Source: Heliocidaris erythrogramma (Eukaryota > Echinodermata > Echinoidea > Camarodonta > Echinometridae). Taken from it: a DNA stretch of 64,000 bases. Under the pieces are notes generated by a model. That model was not told the origin of the DNA. It made no database searches and saw only the letters and a list, made by a program, of their open reading frames with translations. Shown one piece after another: positions 3,305 through 59,137 of the stretch. The first letter of the stretch is position 1. Each line of letters opens with the position of its first letter. The stretch lies in NCBI GenBank assembly GCA_025617745.1, contig CM046863.1, forward strand, positions 124,001 to 188,000. The letters are read 5' to 3'. The position numbers and the translations under genes are program-made.

Positions 3305-4260
3305 AGTAAACGAAGAAGCTTGACTGGGGAGGAATTTTTAATTTGTAAACAAATCTTTAGGCATTTTACTCCCAGTGTTAAAGATCGTATGCTCGATCTG
3401 TAATGAAAAACACAAGTCAGAAAAAATTGGAACCAGCGGGATTCGAACCTGTCATCTACTGCTTGCCGGGCAGCGACTTAACCACCAGGCTATTCTGGTT
3501 CACGGCCAAGTCACGATGAAACTAGAATCAAATACCCAAGATCCTCTTCTTTCTGACTCATTAATATTCATTTTTAACGGTCCGCCGTAGACAATGGTTA
3601 GTAAACGAAGAAGCTTGACTGGGGAGGAATTTTTAATTTGTAAACAAATCTTTAGGCATTTTACTCCCAGTGTTAAAGATCGTATGCTCGATCTGTAATG
3701 AAAAACACAAGTCAGAAAAAATTGGAACCAACGGGATTCGAACCTGTCATCTACTGCTTGCCGGGCAGCGACTTAACCACCAGGCTATTCTGGTTCACGG
3801 CCAAGTCACGATGAAACTAGAATCAAATGCCCAAGATCCTCTTCTTTCTGACTCATTAATATTCATTTTTAACGGTCCGCCGTAGACAATGGTTAGTAAA
3901 CGAAGAAGCTTGACTGGGGAGGAATTTTTAATTTGTAAACAAATCTTTAGGCATTTTACTCCCAGTGTTAAAGATCGTATGCTCGATCTGTAATGAAAAA
4001 CACAAGTCAGAAAAAATTGGAACCAGCGGGATTCGAACCTGTCATCTACTGCTTGCCGGGCAGCGACTTAACCACCAGGCTATTCTGGTTCACGGCCAAG
4101 TCACGATGAAACTAGAATCAAATACCCAAGATCCTCTTCTTTCTGACTCATTAATATTCATTTTTAACGGTCCGCCGTAGACAATGGTTAGTAAACGAAG
4201 AAGCTTGACTGGGGAGGAATTTTTAATTTGTAAACAAATCTTTAGGCATTTTACTCCCAG
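3305..4260. repeat. 295-bp satellite array B carrying tRNA-like units
   Basis: Units start at 3305, 3600 and 3895 with a partial unit from 4190 to 4260. The order of single-base variants (the second unit has ACGGGATTCG and AATGCCC) matches array A shifted by one unit, so the blocks are duplicates and not independent expansions. Confidence 0.9.
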
Positions 4261-4540
4261 TCAAGCTTCTTCGTTTACTAACCATTGTCTACGGCGGACC
4301 GTTAAAAATGAATATTAATGAGTCAGAAAGAAGAGGATCTTGGGTATTTGATTCTAGTTCCATCGTGACTTGGCCGTGAACCAGAATAGCCTGGTGGTTA
4401 AGTCGCTGCCCGGCAAGCAGTAGATGACAGGTTCGAATCCCGCTGGTTCCAATTTTTTCTGACTTGTGTTTTTCATTACAGATCGAGCATACGATCTTTA
4501 ACACTGGGAGTAAAATGCCTAAAGTTTTGTTTACAAATTA
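4261..4540 (-). repeat. Inverted 295-bp unit facing array B
   Basis: At 4261 the sequence turns round. The text after ACTCCCAG is TCAAGCTTCTTCGTTTACTA, the reverse complement of the unit start, and a whole unit then follows in opposite orientation to about 4530. The last direct unit and this inverted unit form a head-to-head palindrome with almost no spacer. The tRNA-like core reads on the plus strand here (4377-4450). Confidence 0.85.
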
Positions 4541-19019: not shown

Positions 19020-20255
19020 CGGGTTGTCCGTCTGTTCGTCCGTCTGTCCGGAGAATCGTTTGAGGTATGAACTTCACAGTTGGTGCAAGCATGTATCACC
19101 ATAAAAATAGGAACTGATTAGATTTTGGGGTATGTAGGTCAAAGATCATAGAGGTTAAATTGTGAAATGTCAGGTTATATCATACCGCGATATCTCACGA
19201 ACCGTTTGAGGTATGAACTTCAAACTTGGTACTAGTATGTATCACATAGAAAGACGATCTGACAAGATTTTGGGATATGTAGGTCAAAGGTCATAGAGGT
19301 CAACTTGTGAAGTTTTCGTTTTTTTCCGATATCTCAAGAACCATTTGAGATATGCACTTCAAACTTGGTTCCAGTATGTATCACCATAGGAAGACGATCT
19401 GACAAGATTTTGGGATATGTAGGTCTAAGGTCAAAGGTCATAGAGGTCAAATCACGATATTTCAGGTTACATCCTTTTGAGCACGATATCTCAAAAACTG
19501 AGGTATGATCTTGAAACTTGGTACTAGTATGTATCACCATAGGACTATGATCTGAATAGATTTCGGTGTATGTAGGTCAAAGGTCAAAGGTCACAGAGGT
19601 CAAATCGTGAAATTTCATCTTACAGCTTTGTTAACACGATATCTCGAGAACGATTTGAGGTATGATATTCAAACCTGGTCCCAGTATGTATCACCATAGG
19701 AAGAAGATCTGATTAGATATTGGGATACAAAGGTCAAAGGTCATAGAGGTCAAATTGTAAAACTTCAGGTTATATCTTCGTTAATGCAATATCCCAATAA
19801 CCGTTTGAGTTATGGATGTATCACCTTTGCATTTTATAACATGCAAGTAAATGATTGAGCGACATGTTAATTGGAGGGAGCGCAGGTCCTTTATTGCATC
19901 ATTGGCATTCATTTTGAACCCAAAAATGTGCTTAAATACTTGTTGATAATTAGGGCTAAGGTCAGAGAGGTCAATTAACATGTGACCATAGATTATTATT
20001 TCTTATTGTTTATCACAATATTTCAAGAAGAGTTTGAGCCATAACCTTAAAGGGGATTTTCATTGTTTTCCCCTGTTCTTCATGGCATTAAATATTCATA
20101 ACTTTCTTATTAGTTGTCCGATTTTCCTCAAACTTTTTTTGATCTATTCATCTGATTTTCCTGCTTCTGGTGAAAGCAAGGTATTTTATGGCTGGACTTC
20201 CCCTTTAATTGAATTTAGGCGGAGGCATATAGGAGACGGAGTTGCATTCATCTTG
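19020..20255. repeat. ~150-bp tandem array with AGGTCA half-sites, array 1
   Basis: The array opens with GTCCGTCTGTTCGTCCGTCT and carries about six units with ATATCTC(A/G)(A/C)GAAC, then TTTGAGGTATGA, then CAAACTTGGTACTAGTATGT, then a half-site cluster. Perfect AGGTCAAAGGTCA occurs at 19281-19293, 19428-19440, 19574-19586 (with a third half-site at 19588) and 19731-19743, usually followed by TAGAGGTCA. It closes with TTTAGGCGGAGGCATATAGG (about 20213), which also closes the second array at 58853. Confidence 0.85.
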
Positions 20256-25989: not shown

Positions 25990-26470
25990 GGGGTGTCTCT
26001 CGTGAATAGCGACCCTCTTCTCCGATTAAGAATAGCGACCCTCTTCTTCGATTATGAATATGGACCCTCCTGCACGATTATGAATAGCGACCCTCTTCTT
26101 CGATTATGAATAGCAACCCTTATGAATATTGACCTTTATGAATAACGACCCTCTTCTCCAATTATAAATAGCGACCCTCTTCTTTGATTATGAGTAGCGA
26201 CCCTTATGATTAACGATTATTATTATTATTATGAATAGCGAACCTTATGACTTATAATGAATAGCAGTCCTCATGAGTAATGACCCTCTTCTCCTATAAT
26301 GAATAGCAATCCTTTTGAATAATGGTCCTTATGAGTTTATGAGTAGTGACCCCCCCCCCCCCCCCCCCCTTTCGCTTTATGAATAGCAACCCTTCAGGTA
26401 TAAGCAATTGCACATTAATAGCGGTCCTTATGAGCCACTGGTCCTTATGACTAGCGAGGTTACCCCATAA
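25990..26470. repeat. Degenerate 26-bp minisatellite, array 1
   Basis: Imperfect copies of GCGACCCTCTTCTTCGATTA and TGAATA, the same unit as the cleaner array at 51109. Confidence 0.85.
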
Positions 26471-29316: not shown

Positions 29317-29705
29317 TCAGAACAATTGCAAAGCTTGGACGAACTCCTTTTGTCTGCACAGAAGAGGTTCATGCGATTGAATGTAAGCGGCTTTCAGAAA
29401 GCGCAAATGCGCTGAGCTTCTGGCCCGGGACATAATTGAGAATTGGTCGTCGGCATAGCTTTGTGCGCAAGCTGGATTGTTCAGCAAGTGGAGACCAATC
29501 GCTGAATCGCATTTGGCTATCTTTGGTCTGTTAGCGTGCATTTCAGATTTGCAGGCACGGACGGGCTGCGTGCGCTGATTGGTTGTACGGTTCCGAATAG
29601 TCGAGGGGATGTGTTGTTTAATGCGATCAGCCAACCGCTGAGAAGTACGGTCCACGTACCTGGCATCGCACCGGCACTGAAATTGGTAAATAACATTACT
29701 CAAGT

Positions 29706-29738
<33 letters not shown>

Positions 29739-29915
29739 AGTACATCCTTGCTAGTTGACGGTAGCATCCTGTGTGTAGAAAACACAATGCGTGTCGAAAC
29801 CGCATAATAGCAACGTGACACTGCGTGTTTGATCTGACTGGCGTATTTGTCAGATACCTTACCCCTCCAGGGTAGTTTGAGATACACGGGGCATTTGGCA
29901 CAAAACAATGTTTTC
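29317..29915 (-). pseudogene. Penelope-like element, GIY-YIG endonuclease remnant
   Basis: On the minus strand 29915 downward reads CPVYLKLPWRGKVSDKYASQ, then RIVFSTHRMLPSTSKDVL, then a proline run from a 30-nt C/G tract, then in a shifted frame NVIYQFQCRCDARYVDRTSQ, RLADRIKQHIP and LLCRQKEFVQALQLF. This is the linker and GIY-YIG nuclease of Penelope-like retroelements. The usual YVGR glycine is D here. The G tract at 29706-29737 both expands the linker and shifts frame. The upstream RT is absent; an L1/Tx1-type RT fragment is joined directly to it. Confidence 0.8.
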
Positions 29916-39309: not shown

Positions 39310-39928
39310 TTACGAGAGAGGAACACGGGATGATGCCTTCTTCTCACTCCGTCTCAGAGCCTCTAACCGATTAACTCTTGCAGATTTTTTGGCGACGATC
39401 TCAACCATGTTGACAGGAAACCCCGGTCGATGAAGAACGACGACATTTCGGCTACTGCATAGCCTCCTGAGACGGGTGAATTGGGACTGGGGAATAGCCT
39501 TCTTGCACGCAGGTGGATGGAAAGATTTGAAGGTGAGATAGCTGTGGGCGTCAGTGGGTTTGTAGTGGATGCTTGTATCGATACGGCGACTTCCGTTGAC
39601 AGAAATCTCTATGAATGGGAGAGAGTTGTCGGAGATGGTGTGGGTGAAGCGGAGAGAAGGGTGGAATGAATCGAAATGCTGTATGAAAAAGTTCAATTCA
39701 TCTCGTGAGCAGGTCGCGATGCCGAATAAATCATCGATGCATCTCTTGAAGAGGATGGGACGGGGGCCCTCATAGGATGTCAGCATTTGGGACTCCATGA
39801 AACCCATGAAAAGGCAGGCATATGGAGGTCCCATCTTGGTCCCCATGGCAACGCCTTTTCTCTGATTGTAGAAATTCCCATCAAACTGGAAGGATGAAAG
39901 GTTCAAGACCAGCTCCGTTAGAGTGATC
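39310..39928 (-). pseudogene. Penelope-like element, reverse transcriptase C-terminal half
   Basis: On the minus strand the frame reads LTELVLNLSSFQFDGNFYNQ, then KGVAMGTKMGPPYACLFMGF, then the active-site region FKRCIDDLFGI, then YKPTDAHSYL and IPQSQFTRLRRLCSSRN, ending near SSRVPLS. AMGTKM.P.YA..FMG and the IDD active site are hallmarks of Penelope-like RTs. The 5' half is missing because a LINE tail abuts at 39929. No GIY-YIG domain follows. The frame is open throughout, so the fragment is relatively young or short by chance. Confidence 0.85.
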
Positions 39929-40566
39929 ATTTGATTTGATTTGATTTGATTTATTTCTGCATTTTTCCATTTTTCCAAAAGCATAATTGATATATAATAA
40001 GTGAACGGAACATAGTAACACAATACATGATAATATAATCATCAATACAAAATATATATACTTTGGCATAACAAATTATAGAACGCAAACAAAACAACGG
40101 TTTGATGAGGGGGAAAATGCAGGAGGTTTCCATCATAAGCATATAGCTTGAATGGGATGGGAGCCTCGAGAAGATTTTATACGATTTTTGGACATTGTAA
40201 CGGTTTAATAATTTAAAAAAAGGAAAAGAAAAGAAAAAAAATACATCTGCAGTTTCAGGCGTTTGGAAGTAAAAGCAAAAGCAAAAGCATTAGCAAAAGT
40301 GTGCACGTGAGTGCATAAGTGTAGAGATGTGTGGATGTGCATCTTGGTTGATCCATTGTTTTATTGTTTTATTATGTAGGGTGTGTATTGAAGAAGTAGT
40401 TCAACCCTTTGTTTTTTTCATAATGAATGTATCAAAATCTAACGAGAACCCTGAATAATTGTTATTATATAAAGAAAGAAAGAAAAAAAAAGTTGGGTTG
40501 GCCAAGAGTTAATTCTTTTTTTCCAGTGGCATTTTGTTAAGTTAGATTAGATTAGGTAGGTGTACT

Positions 40567-50760: not shown

Positions 50761-51108
50761 ATACAAAAGGAAATAGAGTACAAGCAAGAGGTCCATGTCT
50801 TGCAGAAAACCATGCAGAAACAAAGAAACAAGAAGCTGGAAAAAGAAGGAAAGAGAAAGAGAGAGAGAGAGAAAAGGAGGAAAAAGAAAAAAAGAAAGAA
50901 CGAAAAAGGGTACATACATAGGTAAAATAGACAACCAGTACTTCCCCTAACTCTAAAACAGGTGAGGCAATGACACAATATTCAAAACAAAGAACATGTC
51001 TGCGTGTGTGTGGGTGTGTGGAGGGGAAGGGGTCGTCTCCTCCCACGTAGATGTATGGATTAGATATCGTTTTGTAATTATTAAGGCACTGGCAAAGCGC
51101 CTTTCACG

Positions 51109-51820
51109 ACCCTCTTCTTCGATTATGAATAGCGACCCTCTTCTTCGATTATGAATAGCGACCCTCTTCCCTGATTATGAATAGCGACCCTCTTCTCTGA
51201 TTATGAATAGCGACCCTCTTCTTCGATTATGAATAGCGACCCTCTTCTTCGATTATGAATAGCGACCCTCTTCTCTGATTATGAATAGCGACCCTCTTCT
51301 TTGATTATGAATAGCGACCCTCTTCTTCGATTATGAATATCGACCCTCTTCTTCGATTATGAATAGCGACCCTCTTCTTTGATTATGAATAGCGACCCTC
51401 TTCTTTGATTATGAATAGCGACCCTCTTCTCTGATTATGAATAGCGACCCTCTTCTCCGATTATGAATAGCGACCCTCTTCTTTGATTATGAATAGCGAC
51501 CCTCTTCTTTGATTATGAATAGCGACCCTTATGAATATTGACCTTTATGAATAGCGACCTTTATGAATATCGACCTTTATGAATAGCGACCCTGTTTTCG
51601 TATTATGAATAGGGACCCTTATGATTAACGACCCTGATTTGGTATTATGAATAGCGACCCTCTTTCCGTATTATGAATAGCGATCCTTATGTCTTATTAT
51701 GAATGGCGGTCCTTATGAATAATTACCCTTATGAATAGCAACCCTTATGTCTTATTATGAATAGCGGTCCTTATGAATAATTTTTTTTATGAATAGCGGT
51801 CCTTATGATTAGCGAGCGGA
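51109..51820. repeat. 26-bp minisatellite, array 2
   Basis: Unit ACCCTCTTCTTCGATTATGA plus ATAGCG, exactly 26 bp, in about 16 regular copies to about 51530. Shorter, degenerate copies (GACCTTTATGAATA, CGGTCCTTATGAATA) then run to 51820. Same family as 25990-26470. No unique spacers, so not CRISPR. Confidence 0.95.
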
Positions 51821-52478: not shown

Positions 52479-52752
52479 TAATATAATTGCATCACAACAT
52501 TGACCAGTATAGAACATTGTAGAAATAAGTTGAATCTGTTTATCTGATGGACGGTTGATGCAATGTAAGAAGTGATTGTATATTGCACCATGTCTTCATG
52601 ACATAACCCTTCTTGGACCTTTTATCTGTATTTTTAAGGGTCTGTATCTGTATCTGTATCTGATTGAGCTTCTTCCCCCCCCCCCTGTTTTTTTTTTTTT
52701 TTTTTTTTTTTTTATATATATATGTATATGTCTTTCAAAGTATATTACTTGT

Positions 52753-55700
52753 ATGTCTTTGTGCAATGGATGTATGAATCCCGGTCAGTTTGAAAATTCT
52801 GAAGAAAGTTTACAGCATTATTTATGTACCCAATCGTCTTTCACTGCTGATGATGATGATGACGGAGTCTATGATAGTGATACATTATATTATTCCCCTG
52901 ATAGTTTTAATGATATGATTACTGATATTCAAAATCCTAGAGATATTTCACTAGTTCACATGAATTGCAGAAGCCTGAATAAGAATTATGAAGCTATATC
53001 TGTCTATCTTCAGTTACTGAAAGTTGAATTTGATGTCATTGCTTTTAGTGAAACATGGTTAACTGATGGTTTGAATTACCTAGAAACATTACCTAATCAC
53101 ACATTTTATGGAAAGAACAGAGAGAGCCGTGGTGGTGGAGTTGGTGTTTTTATTAACAATAAATTCATCGTAAAGGAACGTCTTGATTTAAATGTATTTA
53201 ATGTCAATATAGAGTTTCACTGTCTTGAAATAGTACAAAAGAGTAAAAACCTTATTATTGCTGTTGTTTATAAACCACCAAAACAAAGCGATGAATGTTT
53301 TATCTCAGACCTAACATATATATTATCCAAAATGTGTAATGAGAACAAACGAAACTATATACTTGGAGATTTTAAGTTGAACCTATTAGATCTGAATGCA
53401 AACCGAAATGTAAATTTGTTTCTAGAAACTATGAATGCACATTCTTTTTTCCCTATTATTATGAAACCTACAAGAATAGTGCAATCTTGTGCTTCCCTGA
53501 TTGATAACATTTTTACGAATGATAAGGACTGGATTATAAAGAGTGGTATACTGATTGCAGATATATCAGATCATCTGCCTATATTTGCTATTACCAAAAC
53601 AGATACTAAACCATGTAAGTTACCTGAATCTATATGTGTCCATGACATGTCAGAAAAAAATCATAAAGAGTTTCGGAATCACCTCACTAAAATATCCTGG
53701 GAGAGTGTATTACAATGTACTACAACAGAAACATCATATGATAGATTTGTTCATATCTTACAAAATATTTATGATGTTTCTTTCCCATTAGTAAAAAGAA
53801 GAACATACAAGCACAAAAGGAAACCCTGGATAACACCTGGTATCTTGAAATCATGTAAAAAAAAATTATACTTGTATAAAAAGTTTTTGAAAAATCCATC
53901 TGAACTTAAACATACAAATTATAAAAGATATAGAAATAATCTCACAAAGACAATTCGAATTGCTAAACAAGATTATTATACTACAAAAATGAATGATAGT
54001 AAAAAAGATAGTAAAAAGTTATGGTATACTATTAATGAAGTCTTAGGGAGAACCAAAAAAAAAGATATTTTATCAAATTTTGTTGATAATGATGGTTGTA
54101 TTATTAATGATCCCAGTGAAATAGCAAATAAATTTAATCAATACTTTGTAAGTATTGGAACTAAGGCTACTGATATATCGAATATTGATCTTTCTCAATG
54201 TTTGAATTATTTGAAAGGTGATGTTTCTCAGTCCATGTATTTGAAACCTATAGAAGCATATGAGATTATAGAAATAGTCAGAAAATTTAATTCGAAGAAA
54301 AGCCCAGGTCATGATTGTATTAGTACCACAATCGTTCAACGAAATATAGATGTATTGATTTTACCTCTTAAATATATATTTAACTTGTCCTTTGAATCTG
54401 GTCAAGTTCCACAAAGTATTAAACGTGCAAAGGTATCACCCATATTTAAAAAGGGCCGTGTTGATCAGTTTGTAAATTATCGTCCTATATCAGTACTACC
54501 AGTGTTTTCAAAAATTCTTGAACGTTTATTTTATGTACGTTTGGTATCATTTTTAGAAAAAAACAGCATTTTATCTAGTTTTCAATATGGATTCAGAACT
54601 GGCCATTCTACTATACTTGCAATAACTGATTTTTTAGATCAGGTCATAAATGCTCTTGACAAGAAAAAACATACTATTGGTTTATATTTGGATATTTCAA
54701 AGGCTTTTGATTGTATTAATCACCAATTACTACTTGCCAAACTTAGATTTTATGGAATTAGGGGACTGGTGTTTGACTGGATTAAAGATTATTTAAAGGA
54801 TAGAAGACAATTTGTGAACTATAATGGTATCCACTCTAATGATTTGCAACTTTCATGTGGAATTCCGCAGGGATCTATTCTCGGCCCCCTATTTTTTCTC
54901 ATTTATATAAACGACCTTCCTAATGTATCTGAGGTACTGTCATATATTATCTTTGCAGATGATACAAATGTTTTTTTAAGTGACTCAGATCTGACGTCAC
55001 TGATGTATAAAATGAATATAGAAACTAACAAGGTCTTTGATTGGTTCAAAGTTAATGGCCTACGAGTCAACCTAGATAAAACAAATTATATGCATTTTAC
55101 TACTCAAAATACAAAGTTTGACAGTAATTTATTAAATATAAAAGTTGCAAATATTCCTAATAGTCTTACTCAGATAAAATACGTACAATTCTTAGGTCTC
55201 ACTATTGATGAGAAGCTCACATGGTCAAACCATATTGATCGTTTATGTTCAAAAATTGCTCGAGTTATTGGTGTAATGAGCAAACTTAAATTTGTTTTAC
55301 CCTCACATGCATTGTTACTTATTTATAACTCATTAATTTTACCACATTTATCATATGGCAGTATGTTGTGGGCAAGTAGTTCAACTTATCTTGTTAACAG
55401 AATCTTTTTATTGCAGAAACGTGCCCTGAGAGTAATAGCCAAGATACATTTTAGAGCACATACTTCAGATATTTTTCTAAGATATAATGTTTTGACAATT
55501 TATCAGCTATGTGATTTACAACTTGGGGAATTTATGTATAAATATGTTCAAAAATCCTTACCACAAAATTTTAGTGATTGGTACATGTTAAATGATTTTG
55601 TCCATAATTATAATACCAGGAACTCACAAAAACTTCATAGCATATACTTTAAAACAGCCCTAGGGCAAAAAAGTGTAAGATATAGAGGGCATGTCCTCTG

Positions 55701-55800
55701 GAATGGGTTAAGTAATGATATTAAAAATTCTGCATCGCTCCAAAGTTTTAAAAGGAATTTTAAAAAAGATTTATTGTTAAAAATGCAACTCTCTTCTTAG
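52753..55800 (+). CDS. LINE ORF2: apurinic-type endonuclease plus reverse transcriptase
   Basis: One uninterrupted frame of 1,015 codons from the Met at 52753; it stays open to 52576, but that part crosses C and T runs and is unlikely to be translated. Endonuclease motifs: HMNCRSLNKN, AFSETWLTDG, GGGVGVFINN, LGDFKLNLLD, SLIDNIFTN and SDHLPIFAIT. The RT follows: KSPGHDCIST, NYRPISVLPVFSKILERLF, FQYGFRTGHST, LDISKAFDCINHQLL, CGIPQGSILGPLFFLIYIND and the active site FADDTN (54952). The C-terminal region LLQKRALRVIAKIHF closes it. The endonuclease GDFN motif reads GDFK (53365-53376); that Asn is normally a metal/catalytic residue, so DNA cleavage is probably lost while RT looks intact. Confidence 0.9.
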   Translation: MSLCNGCMNPGQFENSEESLQHYLCTQSSFTADDDDDGVYDSDTLYYSPDSFNDMITDIQNPRDISLVHMNCRSLNKNYEAISVYLQLLKVEFDVIAFSETWLTDGLNYLETLPNHTFYGKNRESRGGGVGVFINNKFIVKERLDLNVFNVNIEFHCLEIVQKSKNLIIAVVYKPPKQSDECFISDLTYILSKMCNENKRNYILGDFKLNLLDLNANRNVNLFLETMNAHSFFPIIMKPTRIVQSCASLIDNIFTNDKDWIIKSGILIADISDHLPIFAITKTDTKPCKLPESICVHDMSEKNHKEFRNHLTKISWESVLQCTTTETSYDRFVHILQNIYDVSFPLVKRRTYKHKRKPWITPGILKSCKKKLYLYKKFLKNPSELKHTNYKRYRNNLTKTIRIAKQDYYTTKMNDSKKDSKKLWYTINEVLGRTKKKDILSNFVDNDGCIINDPSEIANKFNQYFVSIGTKATDISNIDLSQCLNYLKGDVSQSMYLKPIEAYEIIEIVRKFNSKKSPGHDCISTTIVQRNIDVLILPLKYIFNLSFESGQVPQSIKRAKVSPIFKKGRVDQFVNYRPISVLPVFSKILERLFYVRLVSFLEKNSILSSFQYGFRTGHSTILAITDFLDQVINALDKKKHTIGLYLDISKAFDCINHQLLLAKLRFYGIRGLVFDWIKDYLKDRRQFVNYNGIHSNDLQLSCGIPQGSILGPLFFLIYINDLPNVSEVLSYIIFADDTNVFLSDSDLTSLMYKMNIETNKVFDWFKVNGLRVNLDKTNYMHFTTQNTKFDSNLLNIKVANIPNSLTQIKYVQFLGLTIDEKLTWSNHIDRLCSKIARVIGVMSKLKFVLPSHALLLIYNSLILPHLSYGSMLWASSSTYLVNRIFLLQKRALRVIAKIHFRAHTSDIFLRYNVLTIYQLCDLQLGEFMYKYVQKSLPQNFSDWYMLNDFVHNYNTRNSQKLHSIYFKTALGQKSVRYRGHVLWNGLSNDIKNSASLQSFKRNFKKDLLLKMQLSS

Positions 55801-57700: not shown

Positions 57701-57765
57701 TAAAATTATCACAATCTTATAGGTTCCCTTCATAATTTTCCGCTATCCAAAACTGTATCATTTTT

Positions 57766-58969
57766 AACGTTGAGAAGGCATACGGTTCACCATGTGGTTA
57801 GTCCTGAAAAGGACTGTTGAGTAAGAAAAAGAAAGTGGAGAAAGTGGAGAAAGTTGAGAGGAGAAGAAATGGGAAGGCGGGAAAGAAAGTAAGAGAATGT
57901 ATATAAAGTAATCTTTCTTAAAAGTCCTGAAAAGGACTGTAAACCAGATGAGAAGGCTAAGACTGGAGAAGCACCGTTACCGCGATATCTCAAGAACTGT
58001 TTGAGGTAAGAACTTCAAACTTGGTACTAGTATGTTTCCCTATACGAAGATGAACTGATTAGATTTTGGGGTAAGTAGGTCAAAGGTCACAGGGCACAGG
58101 TCAATTTACATGAAATTACATGAAATTTTTTAGCACCGTTACCGCGATTTCTGAAGAACTATTTGAGGTAAGAACTTCAAACTTGGTACTATTATGTATC
58201 CCCATAGAAAGAGGAACTGATTAGATTTTGGAGTACGGAGGTCAAAGTTCAGAGGTCACAGAGGTCAATTTACATGAAATTACATGAAATTCTTGGTTTT
58301 TAGCACCGTTACCGCGATATCTCAAGAACTATCTGAGGTGAGAACTTCAAACTTGGTACCAGTATGTATCCCCATAGCAAGATGAACTGATTAGATTTTG
58401 GGGTAAGTAGGTCAAAGGTCACAGGTCACAGGTCAATTTACATGAAATTACATGAAATTCTTGGTTTTTAGCACCGTTACCGCGATTTCTGAAGAACTAT
58501 TTGAGGTAAGAACTTCAAACTTGGTACCATTATGTATCCCCATAGAAAGAGGAACTGATTAGATTTTGGGGTAGGTAGGTCAAAGTTCAGAGGTCACAGA
58601 GGTCAATTTACATGAAATTACATGGAATTACTGGTTTTTAGCACCGTTACCGCGATATCTCAAGAACTATCTGAGGTGAGAACTTCAAACTTGGTACCAG
58701 TATGCATCCCCATAGAAAGATGAACTGATTAGATTTTGGGGTAAGTAGGTCAAAGGTCAGAGGTCACAGGTCAATTTACATGAAATTACATGAAATTACT
58801 GGTTTTTAGCCTCGTTATCAAATATTTCTAGAAGAGTTTGAGCCATCAACTGAATTTAGGCGGAGGCATATAGGAGACGCAGTCGCATTCATCTTGTTTC
58901 GTTCTTTTTCTTACTCAACAGTCCTTATCAGAACTAACAGCATGGGGAACCGTAAGCCTTCTCAACGTT
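57766..58969. mobile_element. Element with 68-bp inverted repeats carrying AGGTCA-rich tandem array 2
   Basis: Positions 57766-57833, starting AACGTTGAGAAGGC, match the reverse complement of 58902-58969 over 68 bp at roughly 85-90% identity. Between them are five ~168-bp units with ACCGTTACCGCGAT, AAGAACT, CTTCAAACTTGGTAC and an AGGTCA cluster. Perfect AGGTCAAAGGTCA lies at 58077, 58409 and 58747, with AGGTCAAAGTTCA in alternate units. The array ends with ATTTAGGCGGAGGCATATAGG-type sequence shared with array 1. Confidence 0.8.
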
Positions 58970-59137
58970 ATAAGTACCACCATGCAAACCTCTACCTTCA
59001 AAGTGTATCATTTTTATCGTCCAAATTCCCATAACATTTTCACTACTTAAACCTTAGTCATGGAAATAACCAAATGTGTCCACCTGCCCTTTCTCTAAAA
59101 TATGATAAACTAGATAAATTTCTTTAATTTTTACTCC

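Follow-up and report, generated by a model that had tools for sequence, protein, structure and literature searches.

We analysed a 64,000-nt stretch of the Heliocidaris erythrogramma genome (contig CM046863.1, positions 124,001 to 188,000 of the forward strand), hereafter referred to as the window; all coordinates are relative to it unless stated otherwise. At 57.8-59.0 kb the window contains a conspicuous repeat structure, in which the initial annotation had noticed inverted repeats enclosing five units of about 168 bp. This geometry was confirmed: the arms at 57762-57833 and 58902-58973 are 90% complementary over 72 nt (68 nt and 91% by another measurement), and the units between them are 162-170 bp long. 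It was also correctly noted that three of the units hold a perfect AGGTCAAAGGTCA and the other two a near match, which is AGGTCAAAGTTCA in both. AGGTCA-N-AGGTCA is the DR1 site for nuclear receptors of the RXR/HNF4/COUP type. A related array with the same closing sequence had been reported at 19020-20255, and there too our analysis agrees, as the 3' ends of the two copies differ at only 2 of 38 positions. The features of both arrays are compiled in Table 1.

Table 1. Features of the focal structure and of the older related array (window coordinates).
Feature	Position	Strand	Remarks
Older related array, five units	19039..19781	+	Based on unit matches
GTCC-type microsatellite ahead of older array	~19024-19051		By eye
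Older copy, 3' end	20218..20255	+	Contig positions 144218-144255
Left target-site duplication of outer retroelement	57754..57766		TGTATCATTTTTA; scripted direct-repeat search, exact flanks
Outer retroelement of Penelope-type anatomy, left arm	57767..57969		36-nt tail absent; 86.9% to arm query from its position 37; alignment to the query spans 57765-57971
Non-autonomous Helentron-like element, 5'-truncated (array and 3' end)	57970..58896	+	3' terminus CTTG at 58896
Unit 1, type b	57970..58131	+	162 bp; AGGTCAAAGGTCA at 58077
Unit 2, unclassified (type x)	58132..58301	+	170 bp; AGGTCAAAGTTCA
Unit 3, type D	58302..58469	+	168 bp; AGGTCAAAGGTCA at 58409
Unit 4, type C	58470..58639	+	170 bp; AGGTCAAAGTTCA
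Unit 5, type D	58640..58807	+	168 bp; AGGTCAAAGGTCA at 58747
Helentron-like 3' end	58808..58896	+	subTIR GGCGGAGGCATA at 58859-58870; 98.9% to 91-nt right-end query, which takes in the TT downstream of the 3' end
TT target dinucleotide, 3' junction	58897..58898		Based on termini and empty sites
Outer retroelement, right arm	58899..59003		Includes the tail absent from the left arm; 93% to arm positions 105-4 (58902-59003)
Right target-site duplication of outer retroelement	59004..59016		TGTATCATTTTTA

The window contains further repeats and frames. Two arrays of a 295-bp unit (1416-2527 and 3305-4261; 3.8 and 3.2 copies at 99% identity) sit within a longer near-identical duplication (1733 nt, 99.2%) and contain four and three tRNA-type B-box words, respectively, on the minus strand. 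The unit looks like a tRNA-derived SINE that was amplified in tandem, and pieces of it also occur in the flanks of two loci of the outer retroelement (L022 and L026). Two related 16/26-bp minisatellites of the TTATGAATAGCGACCC type, about 82% alike, occupy 26003-26276 and 51107-51814. The 3' part of the older array copy is interrupted by a short element (20051-20204) with AAGGGGA/TCCCCTT ends and TTAA flanks, by eye of the piggyBac-MITE kind. An open frame of 1074 aa on the plus strand (52576-55800) includes RVT_1 and a sub-cut-off endonuclease-like region and represents a LINE-type retrotransposon frame. On the minus strand, frames at 39310-40023 and 29317-29901 resemble, by eye, pieces of Penelope-type reverse transcriptase and GIY-YIG endonuclease; a Pfam search with these two frames returned no family.

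Two nested elements

The structure at 57.8-59.0 kb consists of two unrelated mobile elements, a Helentron-like element with an array of units residing inside a retroelement of Penelope anatomy. This partitioning emerged from searches of 1.06 Gb of the genome in 26 contigs. Using the whole structure as a query, we obtained at least 84 matches including the window's own (40 of 4844 candidates were scored). Among the matches listed, all those outside the window lie within 57970-58915: none begins ahead of the first unit, and they stop at the 3' end or slightly past it, so that the outer ends are matched by the window alone. The best matches provided the 39 other array copies that we read (L002-L008 and L039-L070). 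Sequence from the left end of the array element was found in all but one of these loci (38 of 39; L059 lacks it, and in L002 it starts only at query position 37). The right end is represented by at least 87 of its 91 nt in 31 loci, including L070, where it belongs to a second, oppositely oriented array; three loci retain 24 nt of it and five none. At locus L006, sequence of the outer element was found outside the left end of the array element. The left outer arm, when used as a query, produced at least 57 matches including its own, most of them at 80-88% (40 of 1544 candidates were scored); the best matches elsewhere reach 83-88%. In 29 other loci found through the outer element, DR1 words are completely absent (0 in 92,324 bases).

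In the window, both partners are incomplete. The array element is without its left end and unit a, and the outer element is without its centre, its left arm directly abutting unit b with an AG common to both. Such an arrangement could have come about in two steps. The Helentron-like element would first have inserted inside the outer retroelement; a later deletion would then have removed the centre of the retroelement, most of its right inner arm and, from the array element, the left end together with the first unit. The junction would be marked by the 2-nt AG overlap at 57970-57971, and the outcome would be a single array left between two inverted ends. Judged from this one locus, a single deletion after the insertion appears to be the simplest account of the window copy. 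The eye-catching structure is thus explained as two nested elements, and the find with it for the most part.

The initial annotation had viewed the structure as a single mobile element, of which the mobility stands and the unity does not: the 68-bp ends are the arms of a different retroelement that hosts the array. A composite element of the foldback/MITE type, with 68-bp ends that carry and spread an array of receptor sites, would agree with the geometry seen in the window. We nevertheless regard it as extremely unlikely, since inverted ends enclose none of the 39 other array copies read, the outer ends are found without the array, and the two parts differ from each other in termini and in target-site signature. 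There is similarly little in favor of the array being simply satellite DNA that no mobile element carries. The units are indeed tandem, and longer arrays do occur, such as the one of 13 units in L059, where neither end is present; yet the near-constant termini, the recurrent order of the first units and the empty sites, all described below, make a plain satellite barely credible.

Anatomy of the array element and of its host

Full copies of the array element are arranged in the order host TT, TTTATGCCTCCGCC, GTCC microsatellite, units, 3' subTIR GGCGGAGGCATA, CATTCATCTTG and again host TT. The termini are near-uniform in that host TT precedes TTTATGCCTCCGCC and follows CATTCATCTTG; the exceptions are L002 and L059, in which no left terminus was matched, and L006 and L050, in which the right terminus is altered. 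Full copies have a 12-bp subTIR, identified by eye, that reads TATGCCTCCGCC on the left and GGCGGAGGCATA on the right; the threshold for HINEs is at least 11 identical bp. The 5' end forms a hairpin at TTTATGCCTCCGCC (-15.7 kcal/mol, z -4.94). No stem-loop was detected at the 3' end: the last 40 nt fold no better than shuffled sequences (z 0.38), the last 60 nt contain no perfect 5-bp stem, and the nearest stem (CAGTT/AACTG) ends 46 nt before the end of the 91-nt query, upstream of the subTIR. Both the microsatellite and the central tandem units expected of a HINE are present. No frame of 150 aa or longer was found across the window copy.

To characterize the insertion sites, we joined the flanks of the 28 loci that have both ends. 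For four of them (L004, L040, L042 and L050), the joined flanks could be aligned with paralogous copies of the target that lack the insertion. The cleanest empty site is that of L004, a T-run that was split without duplication; in the empty copies of L042 about 10 additional bases adjoin the junction, and those of L050 are of low complexity. Taken together with the termini, the empty sites indicate insertion in T-runs without target-site duplication, which is also a property of HINEs. The element is numerous, as its 38-nt 3' end occurs at 2449 places in the genome (1197 + 1252) with up to three mismatches, compared with none for the reversed control. Unit type a opens the array in 35 of 40 loci and the usual order is a-b-(CD)n, the exceptions including L039, L057, L059, L067, L069 and L070. 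This recurrent order suggests that the copies descend largely from one array, with units gained or lost.

We also looked for a possible source of the replication machinery. The genome has 103 matches to the Rep domain (PF14214), the longest open frame among them reaching 4199 aa. Such an abundance of Helitron-type Rep domains in open frames may mean that rolling-circle elements are recent or active in this genome. No similar left end was found near the five of the 103 Rep loci examined (4.4-4.9 kb, upstream side only). The first 100 of the 2449 3' ends, all exact and located on contig 1 up to 64.5 Mb, lie by eye at least about 58 kb from the Rep matches there. The array element works like a HINE and is Helentron-like. 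We refrained from formally filing it as a HINE because it has no 3' stem-loop and because those five Rep loci yielded, on the one side examined, no partner with matching ends. Its spread would proceed by rolling-circle replication, with Rep/helicase presumably supplied in trans. The whole array would be copied together, retaining the recurrent unit order, and unequal exchange, frequently involving the CD dimer, would make arrays shorter or longer.

The arms of the outer element were compared in 30 loci, in 13 of which a second arm was not recognised. Among the 17 two-armed copies, 16 have one arm that is complete or nearly so (starting at position 1-4 of the arm query) and another starting at position 33-40; the arms of the remaining copy (L030) start at 37 and 36. 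Exact target duplications of 12-15 bp flank five two-armed copies (L012, L015, L017, L037 and L038). The window copy (L009) has a duplication of 17 bp with one mismatch that includes the element ends, its exact part being the 13-bp TGTATCATTTTTA. Weaker duplications are 9 bp long and exact (L024, L025) or are one-mismatch repeats (L013, L026, L028, L029), and in five two-armed copies (L018, L022, L030, L031, L035) none was found. None of 200 shuffled flank pairs scored 10 or more. The element therefore displays inverted pLTR-like arms, one of which is shorter, and short target-site duplications of variable length. The centre of longer copies includes what by eye is a hammerhead-like core (CTGATGA..GAAAC) with a 7-bp hairpin. 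Twenty of the 30 loci were scanned with Rfam and showed no hammerhead match at E up to 1, a strict pattern search detected none in the window, and a literature search combining Penelope, hammerhead and sea urchin returned no match. The arm could encode the start of a frame, MVNRKPSQR...

Two kinds of RNA candidates in the outer element were considered and rejected. A hairpin resembling the histone stem-loop (Rfam Histone3; minus strand, 57820-57775) scored 20.4 bits (E 0.019), less than the gathering score of 34, and, at E up to 1, was found in one of 20 sister loci scanned (L011); we take it for a palindrome of the arm. Matches to miRNA families in loci of the outer element were all under the gathering scores and were taken as long foldbacks.

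The outer element (57767-59003) is a head-to-head retroelement of Penelope-type anatomy. It might be argued that it is instead a DNA-transposon MITE or a foldback element. Such elements have inverted ends, and the lack of a hammerhead match to Rfam in the 20 loci scanned, the five two-armed copies without target duplication and the lack of a reverse-transcriptase frame linked to the outer element in the copies read would all be in line with this assignment. However, the exact duplications of 12-15 bp speak against it, as do the 16 of 17 two-armed copies that are truncated on one side only, with a tail of about 36 nt, a combination that matches descriptions of Penelope elements in passages of PMC3846280 and PMC11167929. 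On balance, a MITE or foldback origin seems rather unlikely.

Dispersal and decay of the AGGTCA words

The word AGGTCA-N-AGGTCA occurs 12 times in the window, always inside the two arrays; in shuffled sequences it averages 0.01 occurrences and never exceeds one. The central parts of the 39 other array loci contain 390 DR1-shaped words (overlapping ones counted), or about ten in each of these best-matching copies, and their outer flanks 11 in 70,200 bases. The idea that clustered AGGTCA words are being spread is thus borne out. Not every 3' end is accompanied by units: L077, L078 and L083 have no unit match, and L094 has short ones only.

We asked whether the half-sites are better conserved than the rest of the unit, a check that the initial annotation had put forward. 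From 283 aligned young units, 13 with coverage under 85% were dropped, leaving 270. Typing resulted in five types of at least eight members (259 units), the smaller clusters (11 units) being discarded, and columns with less than 75% consensus within a type were excluded from the mutation count. In this young family, private mutations affect 28 of 3353 DR1 positions versus 425 of 38698 in the rest of the unit (odds ratio 0.76, Fisher p=0.19), a ratio that leans to fewer DR1 changes without significance. The comparison with non-CpG columns gave p=0.46, and the DR1 window ranks 41 of 156 for private mutations. Decay of the half-sites in the young family is therefore not detectably different from that of the rest of the unit. 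Equal decay of the words and arrays that lack the inverted ends had been named as the two observations that would tell against the proposed element, and our sample includes both, given this result and the 39 of 39 other arrays that are unbounded. At the DR1 spot of the aligned young units, 181 of 270 are perfect and 67 have AGGTCAAAGTTCA, a variant with an altered second half-site that multiplied together with type C. In raw letters, 182 of 270 hold AGGTCAAAGGTCA, 194 some AGGTCA-N-AGGTCA and 76 none; raw letters were used for this count, as dropping insertion columns gives an artefactual 265 of 270.

Diverged units provide a longer view. When the older array of the window is compared with the young unit, DR1 comes first of 112 windows, with 98.5% identity where the core averages 82.9%; within the set of five older units the DR1 window ranks 2 of 112. 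The corresponding values for 18 diverged sequences, again set against the young unit, are 92.6% and 76.2% (rank 1 of 112); all these rankings are based on units collected by profiles that contain the DR1 block. We therefore also sampled units anchored at the 3' end. Of 35 places within one mismatch of the older 3' end, 20 were taken as 520-bp stretches, in which units were still located by the unit profile; five of the 27 long units scored at least 180 bits and were dropped, leaving 22. AGGTCAAAGGTCA is intact in 6 of these 22 units (5 of 16 intermediate and 1 of 6 diverged ones) and some AGGTCA-N-AGGTCA is present in 8, while deletions of 7 or 14 bp have shortened the motif in 7 of the 16 intermediate units. 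If deletions are ignored, the rank of the DR1 block is 5 of 112 for the six diverged units; for the intermediate units it is 23 of 112.

Neither the young family nor the 3'-anchored sample, then, suggests that DR1 is kept better than its surroundings. We read these data as pointing to no detectable constraint on the copies and, at most, to weak past retention in source elements, which leaves room for some DR1 retention. The AGGTCA words belong to the unit and spread along with it, and would then drift without detectable constraint. Their changing number may be due to an internal 7-bp AGGTCAA repeat, which would gain and lose copies by slippage. The alternative offered by the initial annotation, that the motif is a by-product of repeat expansion, fits best.

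A different explanation is that the DR1 block was selected in source (master) elements, for example as a putative nuclear-receptor site of the host that would drive transcription of the element or open up chromatin, while the copies decay freely. It draws on the first rank of DR1 in both comparisons with the young unit, on its second rank among the five older units, and on rank 5 of 112 in the six diverged 3'-anchored units with gaps ignored. However, the units behind the leading ranks were found with profiles that include the DR1 block, and other blocks are nearly as conserved. AGGTCAAAGGTCA is absent from 16 and any AGGTCA-N-AGGTCA from 14 of the 22 3'-anchored units, in some of which 14 bp of the motif are missing. 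The shares of AGGTCAAAGTTCA and of word-free units in the young family also argue against selection, and the 7-bp slippage could keep the words alike without it. We thus consider selection in master elements unlikely. A more specific version, in which the source lineage kept DR1 through a host receptor of the RXR/COUP/HNF4 type and thousands of insertions sowed putative sites, some of them co-opted near genes, strikes us as quite improbable. If true, it would involve up to some 20,000 words, a figure obtained by extrapolating the roughly ten words per best-matching copy to all 2449 3' ends. The receptor reading finds no support in conservation, and the receptor sites are putative. In contrast, we hold with considerable confidence the account as a whole, comprising nesting, deletion, rolling-circle spread in trans and AGGTCA words that drift without detectable constraint. 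The 2449 dispersed 3' ends constitute a natural experiment on binding and on regulatory side effects, the 39 best-matching copies carrying about ten DR1-shaped words apiece.

Comparison with known mobile elements

Literature searches with the unit strings found no match in published work. Titles listed for papers containing either of the subTIR 11-mers revealed no mobile-element topic, and among the best matches listed for Helitron paired with receptor words none named Helitron. The DR1 context pattern had no match in collections of viral and genome contigs. For AGGTCAAAGGTCA together with transposable elements, Alu work alone was found: HNF4-alpha binding sites have been reported in Alu repeats (PMC3252374, in the part concerned with these sites). 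The likeness is that of a mobile repeat bearing AGGTCA-type words; the differences are that Alu belongs to another element class and that the receptor sites here are putative. The nested elements described here suggest that a row of transcription-factor words can be passive cargo.

The outer element resembles Pen2a of Adineta vaga and Poseidon of Anolis in its long inverted arms, one of them shorter, in an optional tail of 30-40 bp at one end and in short target duplications (as far as described in passages of PMC3846280 and PMC11167929). In Penelope elements of a rotifer, one of the inverted pLTRs is 37 bp shorter and the tail measures 31 bp (same part of PMC3846280). The Penelope tail is attributed, in a passage of PMC11167929, to an internal start of reverse transcription. 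Two points differ: the hammerhead-like core was seen by eye, with no Rfam match in the 20 loci scanned, and no reverse-transcriptase/endonuclease frame was linked to the outer element in the copies read.

The array element has its closest counterparts among HINEs, namely DINE-1, Cg_HINE of the Pacific oyster and the Pearl elements of bivalves. Shared features are the 12-bp subTIR, an internal inverted repeat, a GTCC-type microsatellite on the left flank, a short array of tandem units in one orientation, and insertion in oligo-T without target duplication. The units of the oyster Cg_HINE type average 140-180 bp (PMC7492417, in the section on these units), and satellite-like arrays in non-autonomous Helentrons are described in parts of PMC7492417 and PMC4067079. 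Two differences concern the 3' end. The stretch from the 3' subTIR to the terminus forms no stem-loop, and the subTIR lies about 26 nt from the end versus 38-60 nt in the HINEs of mites (as given in a passage of PMC4067079). Helentron-like elements with satellite-like arrays are already known from oysters and flies, and the sea urchin element represents a further case, one with an unusual 3' end.
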